A stretch of DNA of 39,873 nt from Comamonadaceae bacterium (lineage in GTDB: Bacteria > Pseudomonadota > Gammaproteobacteria > Burkholderiales > Burkholderiaceae_C). The translations under genes were made by a program, and so were the position numbers. The notes beneath the pieces are model-generated. The model was not told the origin of the DNA. It did not search any database and saw nothing but the letters and a program-made list of their open reading frames with translations. The stretch is from NCBI GenBank assembly GCA_947381325.1, contig CANCUP010000006.1:1-39873 (forward strand), written 5' to 3'. This document shows positions 4,913-29,254 of this stretch, one piece after another (within the stretch, counting starts at the first letter, position 1; each line of letters begins with the position of its first letter).

Positions 4913-4970
4913 TATGAATAACCAGTATAGCCGCGCAGCATTATTCGACTAACGTGCTGCCCGCTACGAT
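4913..4970 (+). promoter_or_regulatory. LysR-type composite promoter of the hydroxylase operon
   Basis: The box TATGAATAACCAGTATA (4913-4929) contains T-N11-A with TAT/ATA arms. After 9 bp comes CATTATTCG (4939-4947), whose last six bases TATTCG could act as a weak -35. After 17 bp there is TACGAT (4965-4970) as -10. The predicted start of transcription near 4977 gives a leader of ~50 bases to the ATG at 5026. The same arrangement and spacing recurs at 6692-6749 and, on the other strand, at 26635-26578. The box also lies just upstream of the divergent LysR gene. Confidence 0.7.
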
Positions 4971-5025
4971 GCGTGGCATGGGTGAATCAACCCTTACGTC
5001 ATGCAGAAGTATTCAAGGTGAAGAT

Positions 5026-6174
5026 ATGAAGGTAAAAATTCTTGGCGCTGGGCCTGCGGGCTTGTATCTGGCTGCCTTGTTAAAGCAAGATAACCCCAGC
5101 CATGAGATAGAAATTTTCGAGAAAAACCCGCGCCATGCCACTTGGGGCTTTGGCGTCGTTTTCTCTGATCGCGCGCTTGAATTTTTGAAAGCAGATGACC
5201 AAGCTTTGTACGACTATCTAACGCCACATCTTGAAACATGGCCTGAGATCACCGTTGTGCACAACGACCACCACATACCTATTGCGGGCAATGGATTTTC
5301 TTCGATTGGGCGATTGGAACTGCTGACGCTGATGTTCGCGTATGTGGAAAAGCTAGACGTGAAAATTAACTTCGACATTGACATCAAGTCACTGGCCGAT
5401 TTAGGTTCGGCTGATTTGATCGTTGGATCGAATGGGGCATTCTCTTGGCTGCGTGATGAGAATCAACAGAAATTTGGCACCACGGTGGACTGGCGTCCCA
5501 ACCGCTTTATCTGGTACGGAACAACCAAGCCATTCAACAGTTTGACCCTGACATTTCGCGAGACCGATGCGGGAGTTTTCTGTGCACACCATTACCGTTA
5601 CCGTCCCGATCGCAGCACGTTTCTTGTCGAGGTAGATGAGCAGACTTGGCATCGCGCAGGATTTGAAAAGATGTCAGAACAGGACACGATCAAATACTGC
5701 GAGAAAGTGTTTGCCAATGACTTGGAGGGTCATCCGATCATCACCAATCACTCCCATTGGCGACAGTTTCCAGCGATTTGGAATGAGCGATGGAGTTATG
5801 ACAACATTGTTTTGATTGGCGATGCACTCAGAACGGCCCACTTCTCCATTGGCTCTGGCACACGATTGGCCATGGAAGACGCCGTCGCTTTGTTCAAGGC
5901 TTTGAAAGCTCACAACAACGACGTGGCGGCGGCCCTGCCTTATTTCCAGGAGATCCGACTCCCACCGATGAAGAAGATCTGGGATGCCGCCAATGTCAGC
6001 ATTCGTTGGTACGAAGAGATGGGCCACCTCGTCAAAGATCTGACACCGGTGGAATTTGCCTACAGCTACATGACAAGAACCGGGCGAGTCAGCCACCAAG
6101 AGGTGAAAAAACGTGACCCTCAACTGGCTCTTGCTTATGAAAAACTTCATCCAGATGTTCTTCAAAGTCAGTGA
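5026..6174 (+). CDS. FAD-dependent aryl-CoA hydroxylase (salicylyl-CoA 5-hydroxylase-like, single domain)
   Basis: I start the protein at the ATG at 5026, preceded by AAGGTGA, because M-K-V-K-I-L-G-A-G-P-A-G begins the FAD-binding fold directly; an upstream in-frame ATG at 4954 would fall in the promoter. The 382-residue product has GxGxxG at 7-12, G-F-G-V-V-F-S-D at 41-48, an N-R-F-I-W-x-G-T segment at 159-166 and the second FAD motif G265-D266, then A-H-F-S-I-G-S-G-T. These are the marks of the N-terminal half of bifunctional salicylyl-CoA/2-aminobenzoyl-CoA monooxygenases. The old-yellow-enzyme-like reductase half is absent, so a simple ring hydroxylation of an aryl-CoA is more likely than hydroxylation plus reduction. 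4-Hydroxybenzoyl-CoA and salicylyl-CoA are plausible substrates. The usual DG motif reads S-N-G (N136), an unusual substitution. It is the first gene of the catabolic operon. Confidence 0.8.
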   Translation: MKVKILGAGPAGLYLAALLKQDNPSHEIEIFEKNPRHATWGFGVVFSDRALEFLKADDQALYDYLTPHLETWPEITVVHNDHHIPIAGNGFSSIGRLELLTLMFAYVEKLDVKINFDIDIKSLADLGSADLIVGSNGAFSWLRDENQQKFGTTVDWRPNRFIWYGTTKPFNSLTLTFRETDAGVFCAHHYRYRPDRSTFLVEVDEQTWHRAGFEKMSEQDTIKYCEKVFANDLEGHPIITNHSHWRQFPAIWNERWSYDNIVLIGDALRTAHFSIGSGTRLAMEDAVALFKALKAHNNDVAAALPYFQEIRLPPMKKIWDAANVSIRWYEEMGHLVKDLTPVEFAYSYMTRTGRVSHQEVKKRDPQLALAYEKLHPDVLQSQ

Positions 6175-6195
6175 AAGACACACAGCGAGCCTCAC

Positions 6196-6660
6196 ATGAC
6201 GGATGCCATGGTCATTTCTAGTCCGGCAGATGCCTTGAACAAAGTGGGCCAGACACTGGGCGTGAGTACTTGGCGTTTGGTGGATCAAGCGTCCGTCACC
6301 TCGTTCGGTGAAATCACAGGTGATCAGCAATGGCTCCACACCGATGTTGAAAAAGCACGCCAAGGGCCATACGGTGGTTGTGTTGCGCATGGGCTTTACA
6401 CACTGGCTTTGGCAGGCGGTGGTTTTTTCCATGAAATCGTTCAAACGAATGCGCGCGTCGGTCTCAATTACGGCTGCGATCGCGTTCGATACCCGGCCCC
6501 ATTGCGGGTAGGACATCGCGTCAGAGGGTACGCAGTTCTCAGGTCGGCCAAGCCACTTGAAGATGACGGCGTACAGCTCCTGGTCGAGGTAACCGTTGAA
6601 ATGGAGGGCACGATCAAGCCAGCTTGCGTTGCTGAATTCATTGTGCGTTACTTCTTTTGA
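6196..6660 (+). CDS. MaoC-like (R)-specific hydratase/dehydratase
   Basis: This 154-residue single hot-dog protein carries the hydratase signature T-G-D-Q-Q-W-L-H-T-D. D43 and H48 stand at the five-residue spacing of the Asp/His pair of (R)-enoyl-CoA hydratases, and the oxyanion-hole segment A-H-G-L-Y-T-L follows. Members of the family add water to, or remove it from, enoyl-CoA thioesters in the cytoplasm. It lies 21 bp after the hydroxylase gene. A second, unrelated hydratase (the crotonase at 8684) is in the same operon, so the two may act on different intermediates or give opposite stereochemistry. The substrate cannot be read from sequence. Confidence 0.8.
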   Translation: MTDAMVISSPADALNKVGQTLGVSTWRLVDQASVTSFGEITGDQQWLHTDVEKARQGPYGGCVAHGLYTLALAGGGFFHEIVQTNARVGLNYGCDRVRYPAPLRVGHRVRGYAVLRSAKPLEDDGVQLLVEVTVEMEGTIKPACVAEFIVRYFF

Positions 6661-6691
6661 ACGCCTGTCCGCCGCACAGGGATATCCGTAA

Positions 6692-6749
6692 TATGAATAA
6701 CCTGTATCCGAGATCTACATGATTCAGTGAACAAACCTCTGGTTAGCAT
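6692..6749 (+). promoter_or_regulatory. Second LysR-type composite promoter, before BKACE
   Basis: In the 125-bp gap between the MaoC and BKACE genes lies TATGAATAACCTGTATC (6692-6708), matching the box at 4913 in 15 of 17 positions. It is followed after 9 bp by CATGATTCA (6718-6726), which contains the -35 candidate GATTCA. After 17 bp comes the -10 candidate TAGCAT (6744-6749). Transcription would start near 6756, ~30 bases before the BKACE ATG, so the operon probably has an internal regulated promoter. Confidence 0.68.
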
Positions 6750-6785: not shown

Positions 6786-7682
6786 ATGAGCAAACCCAAA
6801 GTCATTGTGACGGTCGCCCCCACTGGCGGAATGGCTGGCAAAAAACAAAATCCCAATTTGCCCACGCAACCCAAAGAAATTGCCGAAGACACTTACCGGT
6901 GTTACAACGCCGGCGCATCAGTAGTGGCCGTTCATGCGCGTCGCGAAGACGATGAGGCCACTTGCAACCCAGCGGTCTACAGCGAAATCAATCACCTGAT
7001 TCGCAGCAAGTGCGACATCATTCTCAACAACTCCACAGGCGGCGGTATCAACGGCGACATGGTCCATCCAGTTGGCAACAGCGAGTACTGGGAGATTCGT
7101 TGGAGCGAACGTCTCAAAGGGTTGGAGGGCGAGGGGGTCGAGATGTGCACCCTGGATGCCCAAACCGTTGTAGCCAGCTTTGGCGGAAAGGAAATTCTTG
7201 TTGCCACAACCCCATCGAGGATTCGCACGCTAGCCACGATGATGAAGGAGCGAGGCATCAAACCTGAATGGGAAGTATTTGGTTTGGCAGATATTGTGCA
7301 AGACGTGACACGTCTCATTGCTGAGGGCTACGACGATGCACCCTACTTCATCAATATCGTATTGGGCGTTAACGCGTTTCAGGGCGCGCTGCCCTACACG
7401 CCAAAAATACTGCAAACGATGGTGGACCATCTACCAAACAAGACCGTTTTCAATGTGAGCGCCATCGGTTCGGCACAGTTACCTGCTGCCGTCAATTCAT
7501 TGCTTTTAGGCGGCCATGTACGCGTGGGACTTGAAGACAACCTGTATTACGAACAAGGCGTGCTCGCGACAAACGTTCAATTGGTCGAACGGCTTGTACG
7601 CATCGTTCGGGAAATGGGCTACGAACCCGCCACCCCAGAGGAAGCCCGCCAAATCATGGGCCTGCGTTCACTGTGCAAGTAA
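6786..7682 (+). CDS. Beta-keto acid cleavage enzyme (BKACE, DUF849)
   Basis: This 298-residue TIM-barrel enzyme belongs to the family of 3-keto-5-aminohexanoate cleavage enzyme (Kce). The family reaction is beta-keto acid + acetyl-CoA giving acetoacetate + acyl-CoA. Seen motifs are V-T-V-A-P-T-G near the start, N-P-N-L-P at 22-26, N-N-S-T-G-G-G at 81-87 and [11 protein letters not shown] at 242-252. Aligned by eye to Kce, H50 and E250 match two of the three zinc ligands, but the first ligand His is alanine (A48 in A-V-H-A-R). R246 matches the conserved arginine. A good ribosome site (AAGGAGA) precedes the ATG. Next to a dehydrogenase, a CoA ligase and an aryl-CoA thioesterase, and with no thiolase present, it probably performs the C-C cleavage step of the pathway. 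An aryl beta-keto acid substrate is my inference. Confidence 0.85.
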
Positions 7683-7687
7683 GGAAC

Positions 7688-8668
7688 ATGATGGCGGCAG
7701 TGAATTGCATCTCACCAGAAAAAATTCAGACCATCGCCGTTATCGGCACTGGATCTGTCGGCGCGAGTTGGGCGAGTTTATTTATGGCAAAAGGTATTCA
7801 GGTCCATGCCTACGACACACGCACTGATGCAAAGCAAAAAACACAAGAGTTCATTCAAGCTGCATGGCCGGCACTGCATGAACTTGGTGTTACACCATTG
7901 AAGCAACCTAACTTTGAGCTGCTCTCGTTTTTCGACGCTGTCCATGATGCCGTTCAGGGCGCAGATCTGATCCAAGAAAACGTTTATGAAGATCTTGCTT
8001 TGAAAAGCGAGTTGTTGAAAGCGATCGAATCAGGCATCACCGATGACACGTTGATCATCTCCAGCACCGGCGGAATCCCACCGACTGCCTTGCAACAAGC
8101 CTGCCGACAACCAGGCAGGTTTGTGGTGGTGCATCCTTTTAACCCCTCACATTTGATTCCGCTGGTCGAAGTCGTTGGGGGAGAAAAGACTGCGCCAGAA
8201 GTGGTCGAGTGGGCGATGAATTTCGCTCGCTATCTCGGCAAAGAACCGGTGCATGTGAAGCTAGAGAGGAGTGGGCATCTGACCAACAGACTGCAATTTG
8301 CCCTGGTCAAAGAAGCCGTCGCATGCTTGATGGAAGGTGTGGCGTCCGCCAACGACATCGATCGCGCTGTTCGCTTTGGCTTAGCGCCCCGATGGATGCT
8401 GATGGGCAGCTTACTCACCCTGCACATGGCAGGTGGAAAAGCTGGCATGAAGGGGATTTTGGATCATGCGGGGCCCGCCATTGAGTCATGGTGGACACCG
8501 AGCGTTGTGCCGACTCTGAATGAAACACTCATCGCATTGCTTGATGCAATCAGTCCAGAGATCGCCAATCAACAAGACGTACAAAGCTGGATCACGTGGC
8601 GAGACGAACAACTTGTGAATGTGTTGAAGCTTCAAGTGCAATCTCAGGCTTCAGAACCCAAACAATGA
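7688..8668 (+). CDS. 3-hydroxyacyl-CoA / L-carnitine dehydrogenase-like NAD-dependent dehydrogenase
   Basis: The N-terminal Rossmann fold has G20-T-G-S-V-G25 and an acidic residue at the end of strand two (A-Y-D43), which points to NAD. H149 in H-P-F-N-P and E161 in L-V-E-V-V match the catalytic pair of the 3-hydroxyacyl-CoA dehydrogenase family. The ~326-residue length and the single C-terminal domain fit the short bacterial forms, including carnitine dehydrogenase, which oxidises a free beta-hydroxy acid and is also found beside a BKACE. The gene starts 5 bp after BKACE with adjacent ATG codons at 7688 and 7691; the second is better spaced from AAGGA. It probably makes the beta-keto acid, or beta-keto acyl-CoA, used in the next step. 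Confidence 0.8.
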   Translation: MMAAVNCISPEKIQTIAVIGTGSVGASWASLFMAKGIQVHAYDTRTDAKQKTQEFIQAAWPALHELGVTPLKQPNFELLSFFDAVHDAVQGADLIQENVYEDLALKSELLKAIESGITDDTLIISSTGGIPPTALQQACRQPGRFVVVHPFNPSHLIPLVEVVGGEKTAPEVVEWAMNFARYLGKEPVHVKLERSGHLTNRLQFALVKEAVACLMEGVASANDIDRAVRFGLAPRWMLMGSLLTLHMAGGKAGMKGILDHAGPAIESWWTPSVVPTLNETLIALLDAISPEIANQQDVQSWITWRDEQLVNVLKLQVQSQASEPKQ

Positions 8669-8683
8669 ATGATTGACTGAACG

Positions 8684-9478
8684 ATGAAAGACTGGATAAA
8701 CAGCATGCCTGATTGCCTTGCAATCACCATGCATGGCTCGATTGCTGTCTTGACACTTAACAGGCCTGAGAAGCGAAATGCACTCAGCGATGAGCTGGTG
8801 TTGGGCCTGCAAAAGTTTTTCGACAACCTGCCAACTGAAGTGCGTGCCGTGGTCATGCAAGGCCAAGGCGGGAACTTCTGTGCGGGTTTAGACCTCAATG
8901 AGCTTCAAGAGACAAACATCACGCAAAGCTTCCAAACCTCAAAGATTGGCCAACGTCTCAACGACACGATCCAATTCAGTCGGGTTCCTGTGATCTCAGT
9001 TCTCCAAGGCGCTGTCATTGGCGGAGGACTTGAGCTCGCAGCCTCAACCCATGTGCGAGTGGCAGAACCATCTGCCTACTATGCATTGCCTGAAGGTACG
9101 CGTGGAATTTTTCTAGGATCGGGTGGGTCGGTTCGCTTGCCGCGAATCATTGGGGCCTCGGCGGTCATTGAGATGATGCTGACAGGTCGTGTCTTGGAGG
9201 CGAAAGAAGCGCATGATCGAATGAGATTAACGCATTACCTGGTCCAAGAAGGACAAGGACTGGAAAAAGCGTTAACCCTTGCTGAAAAAATCACAAACAA
9301 TGCACCGCTGGCAAACTTTGCGGTGATTCAAGCCATACCCCGAATAGCAGAGCAAGATCCAGCAGCTGGAATGTTCACAGAAATGCTGATGGTCGGCATT
9401 GCGCAAGATGACGAGGAGGCCAAGCGCCGCCTCGCTGACTTTCTTTTGCGCAAGCAAGGCAAGGTGAGCAAGACATGA
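8684..9478 (+). CDS. Enoyl-CoA hydratase/isomerase (crotonase family)
   Basis: The 264-residue protein has the crotonase start L-T-L-N-R-P-E-K-R-N-A-L, the oxyanion-hole segments F-C-A-G-L-D-L (64-71) and G-G-G-L-E-L-A (113-119), and P-E-G-T-R-G-I-F (136-143). Both glutamates expected of a true hydratase are present (E117 and E137), so hydration of a trans-enoyl-CoA is more likely than a decarboxylase or dehalogenase role. It starts 15 bp after the dehydrogenase; an internal ATG at 8705 is possible. Its end overlaps the ligase start by ATGA, so translation is probably coupled. Confidence 0.85.
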   Translation: MKDWINSMPDCLAITMHGSIAVLTLNRPEKRNALSDELVLGLQKFFDNLPTEVRAVVMQGQGGNFCAGLDLNELQETNITQSFQTSKIGQRLNDTIQFSRVPVISVLQGAVIGGGLELAASTHVRVAEPSAYYALPEGTRGIFLGSGGSVRLPRIIGASAVIEMMLTGRVLEAKEAHDRMRLTHYLVQEGQGLEKALTLAEKITNNAPLANFAVIQAIPRIAEQDPAAGMFTEMLMVGIAQDDEEAKRRLADFLLRKQGKVSKT

Positions 9479-11055
9479 GCGTCCCAAGCGAGATTGCCAA
9501 TGTTGGCGATGTGTTTCGTCACTGGGCGAAAGCTTGTCCCAGCAAGCTCGCTTTGCAAGATCTACAAGGCGGCCAGCGCAGCTATTCACAACTCAACAAC
9601 AACATCAATCGCCTCACCAACCGCTTGCTCGATTTAGGCGTCAAGCCAGGTGATCGTATTGCAATTTTGTCGCGTAACAGCCTTGCCTACATTGAAACCT
9701 TCGGTTTGTCGAAAGCGGGCTTCGTTCTGGTTCCACTCAATTGGAGATTACAGCCAGAAGAATTGCTTCGACTGATTGCACACAGCGAGTCAGTGGTGGT
9801 TCTGGTGGAAGATTTTTTCGCAGCAACCGGTGAGACCCTTCAAAGAAATGCCCCGGGTGTCATGCATTGGATTGCGATTGGAGCAAAGAGGAAAGGCTGG
9901 CACAACTACGCCCAACTCATCGATGCCGGATCAGAGCAGGAGATTGAACGGGTCATATCTATCAAAGATCCGTTGTGCATCATTTACACAAGTGGCACCA
10001 CTGGACTACCTAAAGGCGTGTCAATCAGCCATGGGGGTGCGCTATGTAACTGTCGTGTCGCAGTGGACGAGATGCTTCAAATGGTGCATGAGGACATCAC
10101 CCTGGTGGTCATGCCACTGTTTCACGTGGGGGGTATGTGGTACCACTGTTTTCCAAGCATCGCTTCAGGATGCACAACTCTTTTGCTCAATGAGTTCAAT
10201 CCTTCGACGGTATTGAATGCATTGGTTGAATACAGAATCAGCAACGTTCATCTTGTACCCACCATGATTGCTGCATTGATCAAGCAGCCGCAAGCTGAAG
10301 ACATCGACTTCAGCCATGTCCGGTTGATGTTTTATGCCGCTTCATCCATGCCAGCCCCGCTGCTCAAGCAAGCGCTACAAATCTTCCCTGCTTGCGGATT
10401 TGCTCAAGCTTATGGCTCAACGGAGGGTGGTGTGGTGACCGTGTTAGACCCTGAATCACACCTGCGTGCCAAAACACCCATGGGTGAACATCTGTTGGCC
10501 TCTTGCGGTCGGCCCATGTCTGAACGCGATGTTCGCATCGTGGACGACGAAGAGCGCACTGTGCCATGCGGCTCTGTGGGTGAAATCGAAGTGAGAAGCC
10601 CTGGACTCATGAGCTCTTATTGGAAAGACGAGACCAGAACGCGCGCATCCGTACATGGCGGTTGGCTCAAAACCGGTGACATGGGTTATTTTGATGGCGA
10701 GGGATTTCTTTACATCGTTGACCGTCGCAACGACATGATTGTGACGGGCGGTGAAAACGTTTTTCCAACCGAGGTGGAAGGCATACTTTTCGAAAACCCT
10801 GACATCCTAGAAGCTGCAGTATTTGGTATCCCGGATCCTAAATGGGTAGAAACTGTCGTCGCCGCTGTAGTTTTGAAAGCAGGCAAAACCACAACCAGTC
10901 GAGACATACAGCAACACGTACAACTAAAGCTGGCTTCTTACAAGTGTCCAAAGCAGATTTACTTTGTAGACCAATTGCCCAAGAGCGCCGTTGGAAAAGT
11001 GCTTCGTAAAGACTTGAAGAGCATATACAGCCCCCGAGGAGAAAACACCCCATGA
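9475..11055 (+). CDS. AMP-forming acyl/aryl-CoA ligase
   Basis: This 526-residue ANL-family enzyme activates a carboxylic acid through an acyl-adenylate to a CoA thioester. Seen are the P-loop Y-T-S-G-T-T-G-L-P-K-G (171-181), Y-G-S-T-E-G-G, G-W-L-K-T-G-D and, at the C-terminal hinge domain, P-K-S-A-V-G-K508 with the conserved lysine. Length and motifs fit aryl- or medium-chain acyl-CoA ligases; the specificity cannot be assigned. It overlaps both neighbours by 4 bp (ATGA at 9475 and at 11052), which ties it to the crotonase and the acyl-CoA dehydrogenase in one beta-oxidation-like module. Confidence 0.88.
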   Translation: MSVPSEIANVGDVFRHWAKACPSKLALQDLQGGQRSYSQLNNNINRLTNRLLDLGVKPGDRIAILSRNSLAYIETFGLSKAGFVLVPLNWRLQPEELLRLIAHSESVVVLVEDFFAATGETLQRNAPGVMHWIAIGAKRKGWHNYAQLIDAGSEQEIERVISIKDPLCIIYTSGTTGLPKGVSISHGGALCNCRVAVDEMLQMVHEDITLVVMPLFHVGGMWYHCFPSIASGCTTLLLNEFNPSTVLNALVEYRISNVHLVPTMIAALIKQPQAEDIDFSHVRLMFYAASSMPAPLLKQALQIFPACGFAQAYGSTEGGVVTVLDPESHLRAKTPMGEHLLASCGRPMSERDVRIVDDEERTVPCGSVGEIEVRSPGLMSSYWKDETRTRASVHGGWLKTGDMGYFDGEGFLYIVDRRNDMIVTGGENVFPTEVEGILFENPDILEAAVFGIPDPKWVETVVAAVVLKAGKTTTSRDIQQHVQLKLASYKCPKQIYFVDQLPKSAVGKVLRKDLKSIYSPRGENTP

Positions 11056-12197
11056 TGTTCGAAACCGATGAAACCAGAGAGTACCGCCACCACATCGCAC
11101 GCTGGGTCGATGAGCGATTGAAACCACAGGCCGAAGCGCTGGATCGAACAGGCGAATTTGCGTTTGAGTTATTTCGTGAAATTGGCGAGTTAGGTTATCT
11201 CGGCACCATGTATCCACAAGAAGCTGGGGGCAGTGGCCTCGACAATCCCTATACATGCTTCACCATCTTGTGCGAAGAGCTCGCCAGGGCTTCCGTGGGT
11301 TTTGCCGCTGGGGTGTGTATGCAAGGCTCCACAGCCACGCACACGCTGCATGCTTGGGGTGACGCAGAAATCAAAAAAAATTACTTTTTGCCAGCTTTAC
11401 GTGGCGAAAAAATTGGGGCATTTGCAATCACTGAACCCAATGCTGGCTCAGATGCTGCGTCCCTCAAAACAAAAGCAACGAAAACCGAAGGGGGTTGGCT
11501 GCTGAATGGCGGAAAAGTTTTCACATCCAACGGCACGGTGGCTGACTTCATCACCGTTGTGGCAACAACGGACCCTGCTCTGAAGGCAAAAGGTCTTGAA
11601 CTCTTCTTGGTCGATACAACCACAACGGGGTTCTCCGTCGGACGCAAGCTAGAGAAATTTTCAGTCAATTGCTCTGACACGGCCGAGTTGGTATTTGACA
11701 ATGTATTTGTGCCAGACAACCACCGACTCAACAACGGGAGCGGCAGTTCTTTTCTCAACGCCTACCAATCGCTGACGGTCGACCGCATCTTCACCGCGGC
11801 TTTAGCCGTTGGCGTTGGCCGAGCAGCCTACGACGCGTCTTTGCAATACATCCAAGATCGTCAGCAGTTCGGTCAAGCGGTAGGTAAATTCCAAGCCGTG
11901 CAATTTCGACAAGTCGACATGTTGGCAAAGTTAGAAACAGCGCGCTTGTACACCTACCATGCAGCGCAACTGGCCGATCAATCCAAAGACATCACACGCG
12001 AAGCGGCATTAGCCAAAATCATTGCGGCTGAAAACTGCCATGAGGTTTGCCATATGGCAATGCAAAACTATGGGGGATGGGGGTTGATGAATGAGTTTCC
12101 GATTCAACGGTTCTTGAGAGACTCTTATTTCCCCATGGTCGGCGGCGGCACCGGTGACATCATGCGCTTGATCGTGGCGCGTCAAATTGGTTTATGA
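11052..12197 (+). CDS. Acyl-CoA dehydrogenase with atypical catalytic position
   Basis: This 381-residue flavoprotein has the family signatures A-F-A-I-T-E-P-N-A-G-S-D (123-134) and R-Q-Q-F-G-Q (270-275), and the C-terminal N-Y-G-G-W-G segment followed by F-P-I-Q-R-F-L-R-D. At the position of the usual catalytic glutamate (E-G-T) it has G365 in G-G-G-T. At the alternative base position used by isovaleryl- and long-chain acyl-CoA dehydrogenases it has D244 (L-T-V-D-R) rather than glutamate. It may therefore use an aspartate base, which I recall for alicyclic acyl-CoA dehydrogenases, or have a changed chemistry. Electrons would pass to ETF; no etf genes are in the window. The start overlaps the ligase stop; the ATG at 11055 is also possible. 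Confidence 0.87.
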   Translation: MMFETDETREYRHHIARWVDERLKPQAEALDRTGEFAFELFREIGELGYLGTMYPQEAGGSGLDNPYTCFTILCEELARASVGFAAGVCMQGSTATHTLHAWGDAEIKKNYFLPALRGEKIGAFAITEPNAGSDAASLKTKATKTEGGWLLNGGKVFTSNGTVADFITVVATTDPALKAKGLELFLVDTTTTGFSVGRKLEKFSVNCSDTAELVFDNVFVPDNHRLNNGSGSSFLNAYQSLTVDRIFTAALAVGVGRAAYDASLQYIQDRQQFGQAVGKFQAVQFRQVDMLAKLETARLYTYHAAQLADQSKDITREAALAKIIAAENCHEVCHMAMQNYGGWGLMNEFPIQRFLRDSYFPMVGGGTGDIMRLIVARQIGL

Positions 12198-13370: not shown

Positions 13371-13388
13371 GTGTCTTCTAGAGAGCCA

Positions 13389-13415: not shown

Positions 13416-13428
13416 AAAAGTTAAAAAT

Positions 13429-18202: not shown

Positions 18203-18957
18203 GAAAGCACCACCTCTTCATCGCCAAGATAGATCGCGCGCACGTCCTCATTGGCACGTATTTCATCTGGTGTCCCAGTCACCAGCACACGACCGTAAAC
18301 CAGAACACTGATGCGGTCTGCCAGTGAAAACACAGCATTCATGTCGTGCTCCACCAAGAAAATACTGTAGCGCCCTTTGAGCTTTTGCAGCAATGCCACG
18401 ACAGCTACAGATTCTTGAGAACTCATGCCCGCCATAGGTTCGTCTAAGAGAAGAAATTTCGGCTGCATCGCCAAGGCCATGGCAAGTTCCAATTGACGCC
18501 GCTCGCCGTAACCTAATTCATTGGCCATCAACGCTGCACTGTTTTCAAGCCCAACCGAGACCAAGGCCTCGACTGCCAAAGCTTTGGCCTGTTGGTCATC
18601 TAACAAGGGACGCCAAAATGAAAATCCATGTCGCTTGGCGCATCGCGCCGATAACACCACGTTTTCGAGCACAGTGAAGTCGTCAAATACCGAGGTGATT
18701 TGGTAAGAACGAACTAACCCCAGTTGTGCGCGCAGGTGGATACCCATGGATGTGATATCACTGCCAGAAAAAACGATACACCCAGCATCTGATTGAAGCT
18801 CACCCGAGAGTTGGTTGATCAAGGTGGTCTTGCCTGCGCCATTGGGCCCAATCACAGCATGCAGCTCACCTGGACGTATGTCGATGGTGACTTCGTCTGT
18901 GACGCGTAAAGCGCCATAGTTCTTGCTTAATTTTTCAGTTTGCAGCATCCACGTCAT
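18199..18957 (-). CDS. ABC transporter ATPase, LivG type (system 2)
   Basis: The start is the ATG at 18957, which overlaps the LivM stop by ATGA; the reading frame extends further upstream but that part only shadows the permease gene. The ~252-residue protein has Walker A G-P-N-G-A-G-K-T-T, a signature segment L-G-Y-G-E-R-R-Q-L-E, Walker B F-L-L-L-D-E-P-M-A-G and switch histidine V-E-H-D-M, all intact. It pairs with the LivF-type ATPase downstream. Confidence 0.88.
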   Translation of the reverse strand: MTWMLQTEKLSKNYGALRVTDEVTIDIRPGELHAVIGPNGAGKTTLINQLSGELQSDAGCIVFSGSDITSMGIHLRAQLGLVRSYQITSVFDDFTVLENVVLSARCAKRHGFSFWRPLLDDQQAKALAVEALVSVGLENSAALMANELGYGERRQLELAMALAMQPKFLLLDEPMAGMSSQESVAVVALLQKLKGRYSIFLVEHDMNAVFSLADRISVLVYGRVLVTGTPDEIRANEDVRAIYLGDEEVVLS

Positions 18958-19940
18958 AGGCCGCCTTTCGATGCCACGCCTTTGGGCACAGAGGCGTGAC
19001 CGAACAATTTCGACAGCAACCCAACAAGCCCGGTCGCCCCCATCAAAGTCATGCCAACGATACACAGTCCGAATGACATCATCCAATGCTCTGTCAAAGG
19101 TTTGAGAATTTCTTCCAACCCTAAAAAGGCCAAGGCGCCCAGCAAGGGGCCAAAAACAGACCCCATACCGCCCAGTACAACGATGACGATGAGATCGCCG
19201 GACAGCACCCAAGACATGGCACTGGGCGAGGCATACGCATTCAGGTTCGCCGACAAAAGCCCGGCAACCCCACACAACATGGCCGACAGCGCATAGGCCG
19301 TCAGTTGATAGCGCCGCAAGGGTACGCCAATGGAAGCCACGCGGCGCGCGTTTTGCCGACCCGCTCTCAAAATCATGCCAAAGCTCGACACGCGCAAGCG
19401 CCAAACCCAAGCCGTGATGGCAGCAAGCAGAACCCATGTCATGTAGTAGACGGCATGGGGACTTGAAAGTTGCCACAGACCAAAGTCACTGGCCATCGCA
19501 ATGCTCATCCCGTCGTCGCCGCCATATTGCTTGAGGCTGATGACGATGAAATAACCCATCTGCGCAAATGAAAGCGTGATCATGATGAAGCTGATGCCGG
19601 AAGTACGCAGGCTCACCAGCCCAGTGCCTAGGCCAACGGCAGCACAAACGCCCAACGCCAAGGCAAGGTGAATCCAGCCAGATGTGATGCCATAGTGAAC
19701 CGGCAGAGATACGCAATACATCCCAATGCCATAAAACAATGCATGCCCTAGGCTGACCAAACCCCCAAGGCCTAGCGCAATATTCAGCGCACTTGCAGCG
19801 ACTGCATAAATTAAAACACGCGCAAAAAATGCCACCAAAAAACGGTCATCCATCCATACAGCCACAGGCGGTAGCAAAGCCAGCGCCAGAAGAACCACCA
19901 GCGGGATCAGGTGTCGGGGTTGTTGAATTTCTGACATCAC
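18954..19940 (-). CDS. ABC transporter permease, LivM type (system 2)
   Basis: This 328-residue hydrophobic protein carries the LivM signature G-L-G-G-L-V-S-L-G-H-A-L-F-Y-G-I-G and, before the ATPase contact loop, R-A-G-R-Q-N-A-R-R-V-A-S-I-G-V. Unlike its counterpart in system 1 it is not fused to an ATPase. It overlaps its neighbours by 4 bp on each side, so livH-livM-livG-livF of system 2 are translationally coupled. Confidence 0.88.
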   Translation of the reverse strand: MMSEIQQPRHLIPLVVLLALALLPPVAVWMDDRFLVAFFARVLIYAVAASALNIALGLGGLVSLGHALFYGIGMYCVSLPVHYGITSGWIHLALALGVCAAVGLGTGLVSLRTSGISFIMITLSFAQMGYFIVISLKQYGGDDGMSIAMASDFGLWQLSSPHAVYYMTWVLLAAITAWVWRLRVSSFGMILRAGRQNARRVASIGVPLRRYQLTAYALSAMLCGVAGLLSANLNAYASPSAMSWVLSGDLIVIVVLGGMGSVFGPLLGALAFLGLEEILKPLTEHWMMSFGLCIVGMTLMGATGLVGLLSKLFGHASVPKGVASKGGL

Positions 19941-20860
19941 TTACCCCTGTAGGCTGGAAACAGCCCTTGCGGCCGCACAGCCAACACCACCGCCATCAGC
20001 AGATACACCAACATAGATGCAATCGCTGGCCCTGCAGCATTGGCCACTTCGCGGCTCGCGACCTCGCGCAGAAGGAAGGTGATCGATGTCCTACCCAATG
20101 TGTCTACTACCCCCACAAGAATAGCGGCAAACAGGGCCCCATGCACGGAACCAATGCCACCAATGACAATCACCACCAGCGTGACGATCAACACAGACTC
20201 GCCCATGCCGCTTTGCACCGAAAGTATCGGTGCAGCCATCGCACCAGCGAGCGCAGCCAAACCAGAACCCAAAGCAAACAGCATGGCATTGAGTAGGCGA
20301 ATATTCACGCCCAGTGCGGCCACGATGGCGGGGTTGACGGAACCGGCGCGGATCAACATGCCAACGCGCGTTTGATGGATCAGCCATTGACTCAAAAGTG
20401 CGACCAACAAGCCAACCACGATGATGGTGAAGCGGTAACCCGGATAGGAAAAACCGAACAACACAACGGTTCCAGAGAGTGCCTCAGGCAATGAGATGAA
20501 AACAGGCTGAGGCCCCCAAATGGCTCGGACCATTTCATTGAAAAACAAGACCAATCCAAACGTCGCCAACACATGGTCGAGGTGGTCACGTCTGTAGAGG
20601 CGAGACACGATCGTGCTTTCAAGCAGCGCACCGACCAAAATGCCGGTCATCACAGCGGCGACGATCGCCAGCAGGAACGAGCCTGTTTGAGCATCCACGA
20701 CGGCAGCAGCATAGGCACCCAACATGTAAATAGACCCATGCGCCAAGTTGACAAAGTTCATGATGCCAAACACCAAGGTCAACCCAGCTGCCATCAAAAA
20801 TAGCAAGACACCATACTGGATGCCATTGAGCAGTTGTGCAAAAAAAAGAGCGGTAGTCAT
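19937..20860 (-). CDS. ABC transporter permease, LivH type (system 2)
   Basis: The 307-residue membrane protein has the LivH pattern: N-G-I-Q-Y-G-V-L-L-F-L-M-A-A-G-L-T-L near the start, M-N-F-V-N-L-A-H-G, the R-A-G-S-V-N-P-A-I-V-A-A-L-G contact segment and a final G-L-F-P-A-Y-R-G-K. It follows its binding-protein gene after ~100 bp that contain an inverted repeat (20927-20952). Confidence 0.88.
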   Translation of the reverse strand: MTTALFFAQLLNGIQYGVLLFLMAAGLTLVFGIMNFVNLAHGSIYMLGAYAAAVVDAQTGSFLLAIVAAVMTGILVGALLESTIVSRLYRRDHLDHVLATFGLVLFFNEMVRAIWGPQPVFISLPEALSGTVVLFGFSYPGYRFTIIVVGLLVALLSQWLIHQTRVGMLIRAGSVNPAIVAALGVNIRLLNAMLFALGSGLAALAGAMAAPILSVQSGMGESVLIVTLVVIVIGGIGSVHGALFAAILVGVVDTLGRTSITFLLREVASREVANAAGPAIASMLVYLLMAVVLAVRPQGLFPAYRGK

Positions 20861-20926
20861 GGCATCAGCTCGGGTTGGACAAAGTGTGGTTCATAGTGGG
20901 CGCATGGCTGTCATTGCTCTTGTCAG

Positions 20927-20952
20927 GGTTGGCGCAATTGAGCTGGCCAACC
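20927..20952. other. Intercistronic inverted repeat between binding protein 2 and livH 2
   Basis: GGTTGGC (20927-20933) and GCCAACC (20946-20952) form a perfect 7-bp stem with a 12-base loop. No T-run follows on the minus strand, so it is not a clear terminator. Its position just after the binding-protein stop suggests a 3' mRNA-stabilising or processing hairpin. Confidence 0.55.
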
Positions 20953-20960
20953 CCAAGCAC

Positions 20961-22145
20961 TTATTTCAGAGGACAGTCTTTGCTGTAGTTGTCCTTGTGT
21001 GCAGTCATGGCTGTGGCCATTTGTTTCATCTCAACACGTTCGCCATTTTTCACACCTTGGAAAATGTAGTAGCTCTGAATGGGCATGTTGTTGTTGTTCA
21101 ACGCAAACGTACCGCGCACTGAGGTGAATTTCTGACTGGCCGCTTTGATGGCCGCATTCATGGCCTTGCGGTCTGAGACCTTAGCACCCACATTTTTAAC
21201 TGCTGTGTCAAGCAGATTGGCGGCATCAAAACCAGCAGCTGCATACAAACTCGGCGTGCGTTTGTACTTGCTTTCAAAGGCACTCACAAAGCGGCGCGAG
21301 GCAGGGTTGTCCAAGCTGGCATCCCACAGCGCGCTTGACATCACACCCACCGCCTGATCGCGCAGCGCAGGAATGGTGGTGGCGTCAACCGTGAACACAG
21401 AGTACATCGCGATCTTGCTGGCCAGTCCGGCTTGTTGCATCTGACGGATGAAGTTGATGCCCATGCCACCCGAGTAAAAGAAGAACACTGCATCGGCACC
21501 CGATGCTTGAATTTGCGCGATTTCGCCGGAGTAATCTGGTTGATTGAGCGGCGAATACACCTCTTCTGCGATGTCACCTTTGAAAAATCGCTTGAAGCCG
21601 CTGAGCATGTCGCGGCCTGCTTGGTAGTTCGGCGCCAGCAAAAATACCTTTTTGTGGCCGCGTCCATTCAGGTAACTGCCCATCGCCTCCGACGGGCCAT
21701 CACTTTGCCATGAGAGGGTAAACAAGTTGGCTTTGCAGCCTGCGCCAGCCAATGCAGCGGGACCCGCATTGGTCGCGATGGCAGGTATGCCGGACTCTGC
21801 GATCAAAGGCATCTCCGCCATCAAGACGTTGGTAAAACCCAAGCCCACGAGGACATCGACACGATCGCGATCCAGGTACTTTCGCACGATTTGGTTGCCG
21901 ATCTCTGGTCGCAGTTGGTCATCTTCTTTGAGTACCGTGGCCGTCTGACCGCCCAGCTTGCCTTGCAACAGCTCAAGACCGAGCATGAAACCGTCGTACT
22001 GTTCCTGTCCCAAAATACCAACGGGCCCCGACGTGACGCCTGAAAAACCTATCTTGACCTCTGCGTGTGCAACGCCTGCGAGCAAGCCCAAGCCTAAAGC
22101 CAATCCCAGGGCGCTTCGAATGGGTGAAATGTCAGAAAATTTCAT
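20961..22145 (-). CDS. ABC transporter substrate-binding protein, LivK/aromatic type (system 2)
   Basis: The start at 22145 follows AAGGAGA and gives M-K-F-S-D and a hydrophobic signal segment with probable cleavage at A-H-A|E (residue ~29). The 394-residue precursor is a type I periplasmic binding protein (mature start E-V-K-I-G-F-S-G-V-T-S-G-P; later A-A-A-G-F-D-A-A-N). It ends in K-D-C-P-L-K, as often seen in aromatic-acid-type members. It lies between the hyuAB pair and its permease genes and feeds system 2. Confidence 0.87.
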   Translation of the reverse strand: MKFSDISPIRSALGLALGLGLLAGVAHAEVKIGFSGVTSGPVGILGQEQYDGFMLGLELLQGKLGGQTATVLKEDDQLRPEIGNQIVRKYLDRDRVDVLVGLGFTNVLMAEMPLIAESGIPAIATNAGPAALAGAGCKANLFTLSWQSDGPSEAMGSYLNGRGHKKVFLLAPNYQAGRDMLSGFKRFFKGDIAEEVYSPLNQPDYSGEIAQIQASGADAVFFFYSGGMGINFIRQMQQAGLASKIAMYSVFTVDATTIPALRDQAVGVMSSALWDASLDNPASRRFVSAFESKYKRTPSLYAAAGFDAANLLDTAVKNVGAKVSDRKAMNAAIKAASQKFTSVRGTFALNNNNMPIQSYYIFQGVKNGERVEMKQMATAMTAHKDNYSKDCPLK

Positions 22146-22194
22146 GTCGCTGTCTCCTTGTTGTATGCCCCTGCGGGCGGGTTTGAATCGGATC

Positions 22195-22215
22195 GCTCCA
22201 CCGACGGGTTGGAGC
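22195..22215. other. Intercistronic hairpin between hyuB-like gene and binding protein 2
   Basis: GCTCCA (22195-22200) pairs with TGGAGC (22210-22215) around a 9-base loop. No T-run follows. With the repeat at 20927-20952 it brackets the binding-protein gene, which could allow separate mRNA processing or stability. Confidence 0.45.
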
Positions 22216-22228
22216 ATTTGGAAAAACT

Positions 22229-24379
22229 TCAAAACGCTAACGCAACATCATCGACTGGCTCGCGCGCAGTTTCGTGGATGTCAATCGCCAGAAGGTCACC
22301 TTCGAGAGGGCAATACCACGCGGTGAGTGCCAAGTCCTTGTGCATTTGAATGGGGATGCCCGGTTGAGGTAGCTCAAGTCTTCTCGCAATCGCCCCGCTG
22401 CGCCATCGGGTTGATCCCTTGGCAAGCACTGCGCCAGCCCTTGAGACAACCATCCTTTGGCCATCCTGATCGCAGAGCAGCAATTGCTCACCAATTTGAC
22501 CAATCACCGTTGGATGGGCGATCTGCTGAACTGTGCGTGGCTTGCCAATGCGAGCCTTGCGCATCGCAGCCCGTTGGACTTCAGTGGCTGGCTCATCCAA
22601 TTGCCCATTGGCCTGAAGAGCCAGCCCATAGACCGAAGTGGCAGCCGATTCAGAAATGATGCCGCAACGCAGATCCTTCATCACCTGTGTCGCATCGCGT
22701 CTGAGAGGGTCTCCAATACCCCCACCGCCTTGCCATGTCACTTCAAACACATCGCGACAGGTCATGGCCATGTGACCGGGTTTGGGCCCGAGCTCTTGCC
22801 AATGGCCCTTGCCAGTGAGGGCGCCAGCATCCACCACACCATGCCCGTAGCGTTGCCGCACGGTTGAACCTGGCCATCCGCCATCAAGCCCAACAGCATT
22901 CGGTACCTCTGCACCATGGGTCATGATCAACGCATCTGCCGACTCTATCCCGCCCAAGGTGAGCGCCAATTCAACAGAGCGTCCACCGCGATGGCGCCCT
23001 GCGCCGCCCGTGTCAATGGCCAGTCTACGGTGCAGATAAAACAAGGGCGAGACCTGCTCATTGCGCTCAACATCAGCAATCGATGGAACCGGTGCATTGT
23101 TGGGCCCGCCCGCGCACACGCCATCCAGGCTGGCAAATGCACCTGCACCACCTGCCAATGGGTCCATCAAGTGCAAACCAAACACCTCGCCGAACTGGTT
23201 GCGGCCACCCAAATTGAACGTCGCCATGGTGCCGGAATTGACCGCTTGAACACGTGCAGCGAATTCGCGTGAACACGCCAACAGTTTGTTCAGCACCGCA
23301 TTGACGGCATTTGAAACCACCCAGATGGCTTCAACGGTGGCTGACCCCACAGGCGCGGGAAACGTGGCCGTACAGACCAGTCCGTCAGGTGCAATCACTT
23401 CACAGCAGTCAAGCAGCCCTTGGTTCCATGGGATGTCATAGGCAAGCGTGGGAAACAGGCCTCCGGTCACCCCACCCACCAGGCCTGCCCGCGTGCAGTT
23501 GATGAAACCCGGCGCCTGGGGAGATGAATCTGAAAAATCAAAACGCAGGTGGTCGCCGCGTTTTTGTAACGTCACATCGATTTTGTAGAGATGGTTCTCA
23601 TGGCCATCGTGCTCAAGAAAGTCTTGGGCATGAAAATCGCCATCGGGAAGAAGCATCAAACGCTCTTGAAGTCGCTTGCGAGAGGCTTCGATCATGCGGT
23701 TCATGACATACCGTATCGTCTCGGCGCCGTAGCGACGAACCAAACTGGTGATGCGCTCACGGGCCACGTTCACGGTGGCAATGAAAGCGCGGATGTCCAG
23801 CCCCAACTGGGCAGGCAGTCGGGATGCTGTGAGGATCATGTCCAACACATCTTCGCGCAACACCCCTTGATCGACCAATTTGACGCACGGGATGCGCATG
23901 CCCTCTTGATACACAGACCGTGCCTTGGGCGACCAGCTTGCAAAGTCCATGCCCCCAACATCTGTCTCATGCGCTTCAACGCCGGCCCACGCAATCAGTT
24001 CGCCATCTACATAAATGGGCCCTGCCAACTGGACATCGTTTTGATGCAAGGCCCCCACATAGGGGTCGTTGCCAATGAACATGTCGCCATCTTGAACTGT
24101 GATGCTGGGCTTGTCGTTGATGTATCGAATCAGGGTACCCACCACCGGCGCTTGGTAAGTCACCTGAAATCCCATGGAGGCAAACGAACCATTGGGTAAG
24201 TAAACGCCCGTGAAGAAGTCTGAAGCCTCAGTCACAGTGGGCGAACCGGAAGCACTCTGCAGTGCGATGCGCATGTCCTCCGTCAAAGAAATCAAACGGT
24301 TGCGAATCACCTCATAAGTGATGGCGCTGAGTTCCATCGCTGGTTGGGGCGGCATGACGAAGTTCTGGGTCGTTGTCAT
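22229..24379 (-). CDS. HyuB/acetone-carboxylase-type subunit with fused gamma-like C-terminal domain
   Basis: I start at the ATG at 24379, behind a GAGGAGA site 10 bp after the HyuA stop; an upstream frame extension runs into hyuA. The 716-residue protein has the HyuB (hydantoinase B/oxoprolinase) core to about residue 615, with E-V-I-R-N-R-L near the start and Q-G-G-G-G-I-G-D-P near its end. The last ~99 residues look like the gamma subunit of acetone carboxylase (a segment W-R-S-G-A-I-A-R-R, then W-Y-C-P-L-E-G-D-L-L-A-I-D-I). Only one cysteine of each expected zinc pair remains (near residues 636 and 690). The family covers ATP-dependent hydantoin and oxoproline hydrolases and ketone carboxylases. 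The extra domain favours a carboxylase-like role; this is inference. Confidence 0.82.
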   Translation of the reverse strand: MTTTQNFVMPPQPAMELSAITYEVIRNRLISLTEDMRIALQSASGSPTVTEASDFFTGVYLPNGSFASMGFQVTYQAPVVGTLIRYINDKPSITVQDGDMFIGNDPYVGALHQNDVQLAGPIYVDGELIAWAGVEAHETDVGGMDFASWSPKARSVYQEGMRIPCVKLVDQGVLREDVLDMILTASRLPAQLGLDIRAFIATVNVARERITSLVRRYGAETIRYVMNRMIEASRKRLQERLMLLPDGDFHAQDFLEHDGHENHLYKIDVTLQKRGDHLRFDFSDSSPQAPGFINCTRAGLVGGVTGGLFPTLAYDIPWNQGLLDCCEVIAPDGLVCTATFPAPVGSATVEAIWVVSNAVNAVLNKLLACSREFAARVQAVNSGTMATFNLGGRNQFGEVFGLHLMDPLAGGAGAFASLDGVCAGGPNNAPVPSIADVERNEQVSPLFYLHRRLAIDTGGAGRHRGGRSVELALTLGGIESADALIMTHGAEVPNAVGLDGGWPGSTVRQRYGHGVVDAGALTGKGHWQELGPKPGHMAMTCRDVFEVTWQGGGGIGDPLRRDATQVMKDLRCGIISESAATSVYGLALQANGQLDEPATEVQRAAMRKARIGKPRTVQQIAHPTVIGQIGEQLLLCDQDGQRMVVSRAGAVLAKGSTRWRSGAIARRLELPQPGIPIQMHKDLALTAWYCPLEGDLLAIDIHETAREPVDDVALAF

Positions 24380-24389
24380 ATGTGTCTCC

Positions 24390-26537
24390 TCAGACGGACT
24401 GACGTCTTTGGTCATGGGTAGATTGCATGGCCTTTTCGGGCGCGTTGACTGGTAACTCAACCTCTAGGTGACCTTGGGCATCGGCAGATGCACTAGCGCC
24501 CGGGGGAACCACCACACTTTGACCAGGGTATTCGATGATGCAAGGCCCTGCGACACGGTCGCCAGGACGGGCCCAAGTTGTACGGTAAATTTTTGTGGCA
24601 ACGGGATGCTGGGGGTCATCAAACACCACGTCCCGCACACCGACTTGAACCATGGGCTCGCCCTCACCCACCAGAGTTGGAACCGGGAGACGACCACGAC
24701 CGATGACGCGGATGGAAAGAATTTCAAATCCAGCTTGCGCAGAACCTGCACCCCGACCGAACAAAACTTCGTACATGGCCTCAAATCGGGTGAGCGTCTC
24801 TTGCAAATGGGCCGTGGCGAATTGGCCTTGCGTTTCATGGAAGGGCACATCCAGGTGGTGCGCTTGGCCTCTGTAGCGCACTGCCACGGTCGTGTCAAAA
24901 CGAATATCCAGAGCATCCGCCTGCAGAAGTGCGCTGCGTGCTTGTGCCAGCACATCCTCATGGGCTTGCGACAGTGACTCAAGCTCTTTCTCGCTCGCCG
25001 TGACCCCTGCCTTGAGTCGCACATAGATCGGACGTGTGACGGTGAAGCCCAAATCGCTGTTGGCTGTCCCAAATGCCGACTGGGCTGTGGCCGCCGCTGG
25101 GACAACAAATCGTGACAAACCGAGCTCGCGTGCCAACACCCAAGCATGTGAAGGACCTGCACCGCCGTTGGCATACAGCACGAAGTCACGGGGGTCATGA
25201 CCTCTCTCAATGGTGACCCGTCTCAAAAGATCGGCCATCTTGTTGTCCAGCACTTCACGAATACCCCATGCAGCCGCCGCCAGACTCAAAGACAAGGGCT
25301 TGGCAATGTGTGTGTCAATGGCTTGACGGGCTGCTGGCAAATCCAATGCCATCCGGCCCCCAATGAAGTAATCGGGGTCGAGTACGCCCAAGACCAAATC
25401 GGCATCCGTGGAGGTGGGCAGCGTTCCACCCCGTCCATAGCAGACCGGACCAGGATTGGCGCCAGCGCTTTGGGGGCCCACGGTCAAATCACCAAAGCGC
25501 ACACGGGCCAGACTTCCACCACCTGCACCAATGGAAGACACATCCACAGACGGAACACTGAGCTCGGCACCCGCCAATTGGATAGAGGGTCGCATGACGG
25601 GCTGCCCATCCACCACGACACCGACGTCAAAGCTGGTTCCACCAATGTCCACACTCAGGATATTTTTCTCGCCGCGCTGTTTGCCCACGGCGATGGAACC
25701 CATCACGCCAGCCGCAGGTCCCGAGAAAATTGCCACAGCAGGTCGATCGTTCAAGGCACTGGTCGGCAAAACGCCACCTGAACTGGTCATCATCAAAATT
25801 GGCACGCGCATGCCTGCCTTGCTCAACGTGTTCTCCAGTGCCGTCAAGTAGCGGCCTGCGATCGGCCCCAACATGGCATTGGCCACAGTGGTTGCCATGC
25901 GCGCATATTCACCCACCACAGGCGAAATCTGATGCGACAGGGTGACAAACACCTGTCCCAGCTCTTGACGCACCATCTCTTCAATCTTCAATTCATGCGC
26001 CGAATTGGCCGTCGCCCACAAGGTGCAGACGGCAACAGCTTCGATGCCTTGATGTCGCCAAGGCTGAAGTGCCGCGCGAAGCTGCACCTCGTCTAAGCTG
26101 ATCAAAATTTGACCATTGGCATCGATTCGCTCATGCACTTCGATCACACGCTCGCGGGGCACCAACGGAGGATGTTGGTTGTGCTTGAGCCAGTCGCAGA
26201 CCTCCATCTCAGACAGCCCCGCAGTTTGTCGGCGCATGCGGCCAATCTCTAAAGTGTCACCAAATCCATGGGTTGTCACGACCAGTGTGGGTGAAGCAGA
26301 GCCGGTGAGCAGCGCGTTCAGACCTACGGTGGTTCCATGTCCGAAGCGTTCGATTTGGGCACAGAAGTCCTCAAATGAAAGCTCGAAATGCTCTGACGCC
26401 AAATGCATGGCATGGATGACGCCACTCATCACATCTGCCGTGGTCGGCGCCTTGAACACACGCATGCGTGCGCCTGCTTGCGCAACCCACAAATCGGTGA
26501 ATGTGCCTCCAACATCCGTGCCTAAATAAAACCCCAT
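24390..26537 (-). CDS. HyuA/acetone-carboxylase-type ATP-dependent subunit
   Basis: The start at 26537 follows AAGGTGA and places D8-V-G-G-T-F-T-D15, the first phosphate-binding motif of the family, at the expected position. The 715-residue protein also has V-D-I-G-G-T-S-F-D-V-G-V and G-G-A-G-P-S-H-A. HyuA proteins phosphorylate the substrate (hydantoin, oxoproline, or the enol form of a ketone) and act with HyuB. It is the first gene of the minus-strand operon hyuA-hyuB-binding protein-livHMGF, and its promoter carries the same LysR box as the convergent aromatic operon. A hydantoinase role remains possible. Confidence 0.85.
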   Translation of the reverse strand: MGFYLGTDVGGTFTDLWVAQAGARMRVFKAPTTADVMSGVIHAMHLASEHFELSFEDFCAQIERFGHGTTVGLNALLTGSASPTLVVTTHGFGDTLEIGRMRRQTAGLSEMEVCDWLKHNQHPPLVPRERVIEVHERIDANGQILISLDEVQLRAALQPWRHQGIEAVAVCTLWATANSAHELKIEEMVRQELGQVFVTLSHQISPVVGEYARMATTVANAMLGPIAGRYLTALENTLSKAGMRVPILMMTSSGGVLPTSALNDRPAVAIFSGPAAGVMGSIAVGKQRGEKNILSVDIGGTSFDVGVVVDGQPVMRPSIQLAGAELSVPSVDVSSIGAGGGSLARVRFGDLTVGPQSAGANPGPVCYGRGGTLPTSTDADLVLGVLDPDYFIGGRMALDLPAARQAIDTHIAKPLSLSLAAAAWGIREVLDNKMADLLRRVTIERGHDPRDFVLYANGGAGPSHAWVLARELGLSRFVVPAAATAQSAFGTANSDLGFTVTRPIYVRLKAGVTASEKELESLSQAHEDVLAQARSALLQADALDIRFDTTVAVRYRGQAHHLDVPFHETQGQFATAHLQETLTRFEAMYEVLFGRGAGSAQAGFEILSIRVIGRGRLPVPTLVGEGEPMVQVGVRDVVFDDPQHPVATKIYRTTWARPGDRVAGPCIIEYPGQSVVVPPGASASADAQGHLEVELPVNAPEKAMQSTHDQRRQSV

Positions 26538-26874
26538 GCTGTATTCACCTTTTGTGGAAACTTCTGATGTGGGGCGAATAATAGGGGTCAGAATCTTCAA
26601 CGAATAATGTTCCATGCCTATAGGGGCTATTCATTTTTCATGCAACACAAGAAATCGAGTCAGCGCCTCCAAAACCCCACCAAGTCTGCAAGATAGGACG
26701 CCTATGCCAAGGTGTATCACGCGCAGGTGGAGGGTGGATGGATCATGCATCGCACCGAATCTGAATAACTGTTTGCCACTTAACGCATAACCCGGCGTAC
26801 TTGAGATGCTCTACGATGAAAAATCAACACGGCGGGCGCCTACCCTGCTCCGCGATCAATACAGGAGACATTGG
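26538..26874. other. Divergent intergenic region hyuA / Bug gene (337 bp)
   Basis: No gene is supported here. The hyuA-proximal part (26578-26635) holds the LysR-type composite promoter described separately. The part before the Bug gene contains a weak partial match to the box (GAATAAC around 26763-26769, without the ATA arm and without the second element) and a Shine-Dalgarno CAGGAGA at 26862-26868. No convincing promoter for the Bug gene was identified. Confidence 0.6.
26578..26635 (-). promoter_or_regulatory. Third LysR-type composite promoter, before hyuA
   Basis: Read on the minus strand, AATGAATAGCCCCTATA (26635-26619) keeps the T-N11-A spacing and the GAATA and CC cores of the box at 4913. 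After 9 bp CATTATTCG (26609-26601) is identical to the element at 4939. After a further 17 bp from its end comes the -10 candidate TATTAT (26583-26578). The distance to the hyuA ATG (81 bp from the box) is like that at BKACE (77 bp). This links the minus-strand operon to the LysR gene 22 kb away on the window. Confidence 0.68.
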
Positions 26875-29243: not shown

Positions 29244-29254
29244 AGTTCCCAACC

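Follow-up and report, generated by a model that had tools for sequence, protein, structure and literature searches.

LysR-type transcriptional regulators (LTTRs) that control aromatic catabolism provide the closest described parallels to the locus considered here. In PMC6449761, the regulons of CatR/CatM/BenM, ClcR, TfdR, AphT and a novel CatR-like factor share a plan in which the lysR gene diverges from a catabolic operon, the operator lies between the two, and several promoters are targeted. The same paper gives AkACC-N5-GGTAT as the operator of CatR, ClcR and TfdR, and assigns a gene of the beta-keto acid cleavage enzyme (BKACE) family, COG3246, to CatM/BenM. For LTTRs in general, the operator is outlined in PMC5002191 as IR1, IR2 and IR3, with CTATA-n9-TATAG. 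A lysR gene divergent from a catabolic operon, with the operator between the two, is likewise seen in a stretch of 39,873 nucleotides from a Comamonadaceae bacterium (assembly GCA_947381325.1, contig CANCUP010000006.1, positions 1 to 39,873), which we call the window. We consider it very likely that the LysR-type protein encoded there binds one composite operator at three promoters and co-activates both of the operons that carry them, which would make the locus a LysR-controlled three-promoter regulon.

Reading and aligning the three places, we found three 58-bp promoter units (sites 1, 2 and 3; Table 1) with one layout, in which a 17-bp box is followed after 9 bp by a 9-bp CATKATTC-type element and, 17 bp further on, by a 6-bp TANNAT −10. 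Site 1 reads TATGAATAACCAGTATA..CATTATTCG..TACGAT, site 2 TATGAATAACCTGTATC..CATGATTCA..TAGCAT and site 3 AATGAATAGCCCCTATA..CATTATTCG..TATTAT. The units agree pairwise at 34, 39 and 31 of 58 positions, and the likeness ends at the operator edges; over 200 bp upstream and 100 bp downstream the flanks are only 21–29% identical, so the units are not a recent duplication. Thus, the identical spacing claimed in a preliminary description of this DNA holds to the base, as does the placement it gave: one site by lysR, one within the plus-strand operon 5′ of the BKACE gene, and one 5′ of hyuA on the other strand. Transcription starts are predicted near 4977, 6756 and 26571. While the longest open reading frames of the hydroxylase gene (GTG at 4954) and hyuA (ATG at 26615) start inside the operator, hydroxylase homology begins at 5026, and we place the hyuA start at 26537, an ATG with a Shine–Dalgarno-like sequence; both positions lie downstream of the predicted transcription starts, and on their account the promoters at sites 1 and 3 agree with the gene starts.

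These units are rare. The core pattern ATGAATARCC-N2-TAT-N10-CATKATTC, allowing up to 3 mismatches, occurs at exactly three places in the window and at none in 100 dinucleotide shuffles. A scan of the draft assembly (3.06 Mb, 242 contigs, 88.9% complete) returned the same three places and no other, with no match for the reversed control. In the rest of the family sample (398 genomes), eight genomes had one place each (one with 2 mismatches, seven with 3) and the control gave one match; the eight look like chance.

The regulator displays an N-terminal HTH_1 domain (Pfam, 6.6e-19, residues 5–62) and a C-terminal LysR_substrate domain (1.1e-26, residues 83–288), and its length is near the roughly 300 residues expected of a LysR-type protein. 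We recovered nine orthologue loci, three from plasmid-collection records (Massilia putida and two Burkholderia cenocepacia) and six from genomes of the order, to all of which the window LysR is 50–54% identical in amino acid sequence. The search of 2627 plasmid-collection records gave three proteins above 50% identity among the matches listed, with the next at 31.7%; the six genome loci represent 6 of 249 genomes in one family, and the LysR search of the order yielded 2 of 399 genomes, namely the window's own and one of those six. Within the window's own genus (84 genomes, E ≤ 1e-70) the only close LysR relative was the protein itself, and the same was true of its family (399 genomes, E ≤ 1e-75, with about five candidates scored per genome, so that misses are possible). 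Eight of the nine orthologues are 66–92% identical to one another and hence not independent, the Massilia protein being 51–55% identical to the rest.

In all nine of these loci a composite operator lies upstream of lysR and is directed away from it, and, as in the window, lysR diverges from the target operon with the operator between them. A 58-column motif built only from sites 1, 2 and 3 had its top match at this place in eight of the nine (scores 11.1–29.6), and its best scores in 17 control loci, described below, were 10.8 and then 4.0. Because the outside sites had been chosen with a window-derived motif, we also ran a blind test. Eight lysR upstream regions were aligned without any window data, and their best-conserved gap-free block of 58 columns served as the motif. 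This blind motif ranked sites 1, 2 and 3 first to third in the window (26.0, 15.5 and −1.3; next −9.8) and placed the lysR-upstream site of Massilia first (40.2; next −7.5). With leave-locus-out motifs, the lysR-upstream place was on top in 9/9 loci. The site of Bcen842 at 14875, which was outside every training set, scored 34.8 versus −4.8 for the next match, and the lead in Massilia was thin (−6.6 versus −8.9), its −10 hexamer being one base out of register. An external motif, built without the window sites, gave 32.4 for site 1 (rank 1), 16.7 for site 3 (rank 2) and 14.8 for site 2 (rank 3); for the motif from 11 outside sites, just one of 160 million Markov null positions reached 14.8, the lowest window-site score. 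The preliminary description had proposed a candidate regulon joining the two operons, with sites that should recur at orthologous loci and lack equals elsewhere in the genome. Both expectations were borne out, in the nine orthologue loci and, at up to 3 mismatches, in the draft assembly, and the proposed regulon is supported, its weaker parts being the half-site label and the predicted binding and activation.

Several observations weigh against this reading. First, a 35-column motif from the window sites does not separate cleanly: the lysR-upstream place was top in 5/9 loci, second in one (behind another good site), third and fourth in two, and missed in one, with control loci scoring up to 13.4, 11.8 and 10.9. 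Second, even with all 58 columns of the window sites the lowest-scoring true place, at 11.1, is hardly above the best control at 10.8, and Massilia is missed. Third, although a relaxed operator pattern scanned over seven genomes, including the window's own, recovered 6/6 lysR-adjacent places, it found only 2/3 window sites (site 2 is missed) and 2/3 secondary sites, and it hit six further places with 3 mismatches in four relatives; the matches number 16 in all (reversed control, 1). Fourth, the T-N11-A (columns 3 and 15) that the preliminary description took for the recognition half-site, although present in 3/3 window sites, is not conserved, occurring in 7/15 sites overall and 3/10 of the lysR-adjacent ones. 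Fifth, when the remaining window proteins were searched for in the orthologue loci other than Massilia, no match exceeded 34% identity, and those seen belong to the Liv-type transporter, ligase and dehydrogenase superfamilies. Finally, protein–DNA contact, activation, autorepression and the inducer are inferred. The six further matches of the relaxed pattern are located in L090, L091, L093, L095, L097 and L098.

Sites 2 and 3 also fall well below site 1 with outside motifs, and the right half of the element's palindrome TTATYCGRATAA, which is perfect in two relatives, is degraded in them (1 and 3 of 6 complementary pairs). Both features would fit a regulator that acts at site 1 and on its own gene only, sites 2 and 3 being weak or vestigial copies. 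We regard this as unlikely: the two sites retain the invariant blocks and the exact spacing despite their diverged flanks, and the same loss is seen at the three secondary sites of relatives, where 0, 2 and 2 of the 6 pairs are complementary.

Another regulator, encoded elsewhere, might bind the composite site, with lysR as a mere neighbor. However, when 21 window proteins were used as queries, only LysR was matched in every one of the nine loci that carry the site, and loci with the hydroxylase or BKACE but no close LysR lack it. The latter point comes from the 17 control loci. Approaching the operator through hydroxylase relatives gave 12 loci (the assembly's own paralogue and 11 from other genomes among 229 with a match) in unrelated contexts and with no site, and these were then used as negative controls; the route through plasmid BKACE relatives gave five (L057, L058, L061, L062 and L063, from 600 matching records, with L058 and L063 being near copies), also with no site. 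LysR matches in the 17 are weak, at 22–29% identity, and partial in all but one. Their best scores with a 14-site motif range from −14.4 to 1.5. The exception, L054, reached 7.9, but this value arose because N letters had been scored as zero, and its best is −8.6 once such positions are removed. Since the presence of the site follows that of the LysR gene rather than that of the shared enzymes, LysR is supported as the predicted binder, and a binder encoded elsewhere appears very unlikely. A hydroxylase scan of genome contigs returned one locus, in a Pyrinomonadaceae metagenome-assembled genome, which was left out of the analysis. The window's own assembly holds a second hydroxylase copy (G000 contig C92:10076–11212, L043), 79% identical, in a different context, with a TctC-like gene nearby and without the operator.

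Three similar cores within 22 kb might also suggest copies of a mobile or duplicated fragment that plays no part in regulation. This reading can hardly be credited, given that identity stops at the operator edges, that every copy precedes a gene, and that the same element stands beside lysR in distant genomes, a cross-species conservation that contradicts it.

In the three-promoter regulon that we favor, LysR would bind the long composite operator at all three sites and, together with an inducer, recruit RNA polymerase, with the CATKATTC element in place of a −35 and TANNAT as the −10. The units so activated would be the hydroxylase and MaoC genes, the genes from BKACE to the ATP-binding cassette (ABC) transporter via the internal promoter, and the opposing hyuAB–ABC operon. 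At site 1, LysR probably also represses lysR itself, as only 14 bp separate the lysR start codon from the box of that site. An aromatic acid, or else its CoA thioester, is the probable inducer. The general LTTR mechanism is inducer-dependent activation by a tetramer that bends the DNA, together with negative autoregulation.

Across 15 sites, the blocks found in at least 12 each are G-N-T-A (columns −10 to −7), GGAT (GAAT in the window), TATA, CATTAT and TA..AT; the operator can be parsed as GAATAA, TATA, CATTATTC and the right half. The −10 is TANNAT in register in 12 of the sites, TAACTT in two, and TACCAT shifted by 1 bp in one, and, as in LTTR operators, the predicted activation site overlaps the −35 and is followed at a fixed distance by the −10, upstream of the predicted transcription start. 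Two dyads run over the sites, GRATAA-N19-TTATYC (69% complementary) and GWTAT-N11-ATAAC (61%). With the earlier T-N11-A set aside, T16-N11-A28 occurs in 15/15 sites, although only two AT steps in it are symmetrical, which could be coincidence. Covariation over the sites showed the leading dyads to be only 0.03–0.06 above column composition, the largest excess (0.14) being that of a dyad centered at column −12, which is unrelated and lies outside the box. Covariation thus lends the leading dyads no support, and for this reason we assign no monomers to them.

The genes behind the operator differ among relatives. In Massilia it precedes the BKACE operon itself, and the M. putida cluster beside the LysR orthologue has homologues of the four window enzymes encoded at 7673..12197 (46–73% identical), with a cupin protein, a fumarylacetoacetate hydrolase family member and a maleylacetoacetate isomerase annotated nearby. 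In the relative G647, the main site precedes a cluster coding for an extradiol dioxygenase, an HpaB-like monooxygenase, a hydrolase, a flavin reductase, a hydratase, an acetaldehyde dehydrogenase, an aldolase and a transporter, and one extra operator (G647:C8:149267-149298) precedes a zinc alcohol dehydrogenase gene, with a porin further on. G969 has two operators beyond the lysR-adjacent one (L077 near 9548 and L078 near 4155); its sites are followed by a dioxygenase and an alcohol dehydrogenase of the kind seen in G647, and one of them stands before a major facilitator superfamily transporter gene. The copies before the alcohol dehydrogenases of both relatives have CATAAC instead of CATTATC. 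In G929 and Bcen842, an FAD monooxygenase follows the operator.

Thus, by sequence, the regulator and its predicted operator persist while the targets change. We tentatively suggest, at somewhat less than even confidence, a LysR subgroup undescribed in the literature searched, with one long multi-block operator that is recognizable down to about 50% protein identity and under which the catabolic genes have been exchanged: a portable switch that comes to serve new aromatic pathways, further operator copies being set in front of the operons recruited to it. The exchanged pathways would be CoA-linked hydroxylation/beta-oxidation with BKACE and hyuAB here, BKACE with ring-cleavage-type genes in Massilia, and extradiol meta-cleavage in two other relatives. 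An operator kept over differing pathways provides an example in which the recruitment of catabolic operons to an existing switch can be studied.

A candidate weak fourth operator-promoter lies divergent from site 3, with the left block, the CATAAC variant seen in the secondary sites of G647 and G969, and TACGAT. It ends 57 bp before tctC, a tripartite-tricarboxylate receptor gene whose likely ATG, with AGGAGA upstream, is at 26875 and not at 26806. It ranks fourth in the window. The external motif gives it −1.3 and the 14-site motif 9.2, the next match with the latter being at −2.7; a score of at least 9.2 was seen at 13 of 80.04 million null positions, or about 0.013 expected per window. We take COG3181 to be the TctC type, and the candidate site may drive tctC. 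This target is plausible because PMC6449761 puts COG3181 transport proteins in several aromatic LysR regulons.

Table 1. Predicted regulatory and coding features of the window
Feature	Position	Strand	Basis or remark
LysR-type regulator gene (314 aa); product predicted to bind all sites	3954..4898	-	Pfam and orthologues
Predicted operator-promoter 1	4913..4970	+	Between lysR and hydroxylase gene; rank 1 in window with motif lacking window sites
Predicted operator-promoter 2	6692..6749	+	Within plus operon, 5′ of BKACE; sequence alignment and motif rank
Predicted operator-promoter 3	26578..26635	-	5′ of hyuA; sequence alignment and motif rank
Candidate weak fourth operator-promoter	26760..26817	+	Divergent from site 3, before tctC
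FAD hydroxylase, salicylyl-CoA 5-hydroxylase-like	5026..6174	+	NCBIfam NF006101 3.5e-115, 386 bits, under cut-off 1078
MaoC-like dehydratase	6196..6660	+	Pfam 4.2e-19
BKACE, beta-keto acid cleavage enzyme	6786..7682	+	Pfam 7.6e-83
3-Hydroxyacyl-CoA dehydrogenase, enoyl-CoA hydratase, acyl-CoA ligase, acyl-CoA dehydrogenase	7673..12197	+	Pfam
Branched-chain-type ABC transporter genes	12234..17029	+	
Second ABC transporter (urea/branched-chain type) and binding protein	17489..22232	-	
hyuB and hyuA (hydantoinase/oxoprolinase family)	22229..26537	-	Pfam Hydantoinase_B 1.8e-119, Hydantoinase_A 2.2e-82

Other genes of the window include one for a TIGR04255-family protein directly downstream of lysR (3119–3904, minus strand), soxY- and soxZ-like genes (29093–30049, plus strand), near which a sulfate permease that has STAS and cNMP-binding domains is encoded (33644–35854), and one for a TonB receptor related to PqqU (37076–39172, plus strand; 459 bits, cut-off 1200).

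The locus offers a testable regulon: a single predicted regulator, three promoters, and a motif from which targets in other genomes can be predicted. Placing the hyuAB–ABC and BKACE operons in one physiological response would narrow the substrate search for two gene sets that are otherwise unassigned.

Turning to known systems, the regulator is of the same protein family as, and similar in length to, NAC, CidR and CynR, its best NCBIfam models, but falls far below their family cut-offs (134 of 309 bits for NAC). Family and approximate length are also shared with the solved relatives NtcB, CbnR-type 1ixc and TsaR, the best solved relative giving E 7.9e-15; 1ixc is presumably CbnR, its table entry reading LysR-type regulatory protein. 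Judged by titles and abstract openings, none of the papers listed from an open-licence library describes this regulon. Compared with CatR, ClcR and TfdR as given in PMC6449761, the blocks here are GRAT, TATA and CATTATYC, the targets are not cat, clc or tfd genes, and the locus does not fall within those regulons; the evidence for the regulons of that study is comparative-genomic, the same type as ours. With the LTTR architecture set out in PMC5002191, the locus shares tandem inverted repeats between divergent genes and a proximal repeat over the target promoter, whereas its arms and spacings do not exactly match the consensus given there. If transcription starts at column 65, the dyads whose centers are columns 0, 22 and 34.5 would be placed at about −65, −43 and −31, an arrangement that appears to resemble the IR1/IR2/IR3 layout of that paper. 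The regulator with its predicted three-promoter set is a new example of the familiar LysR-type switch.

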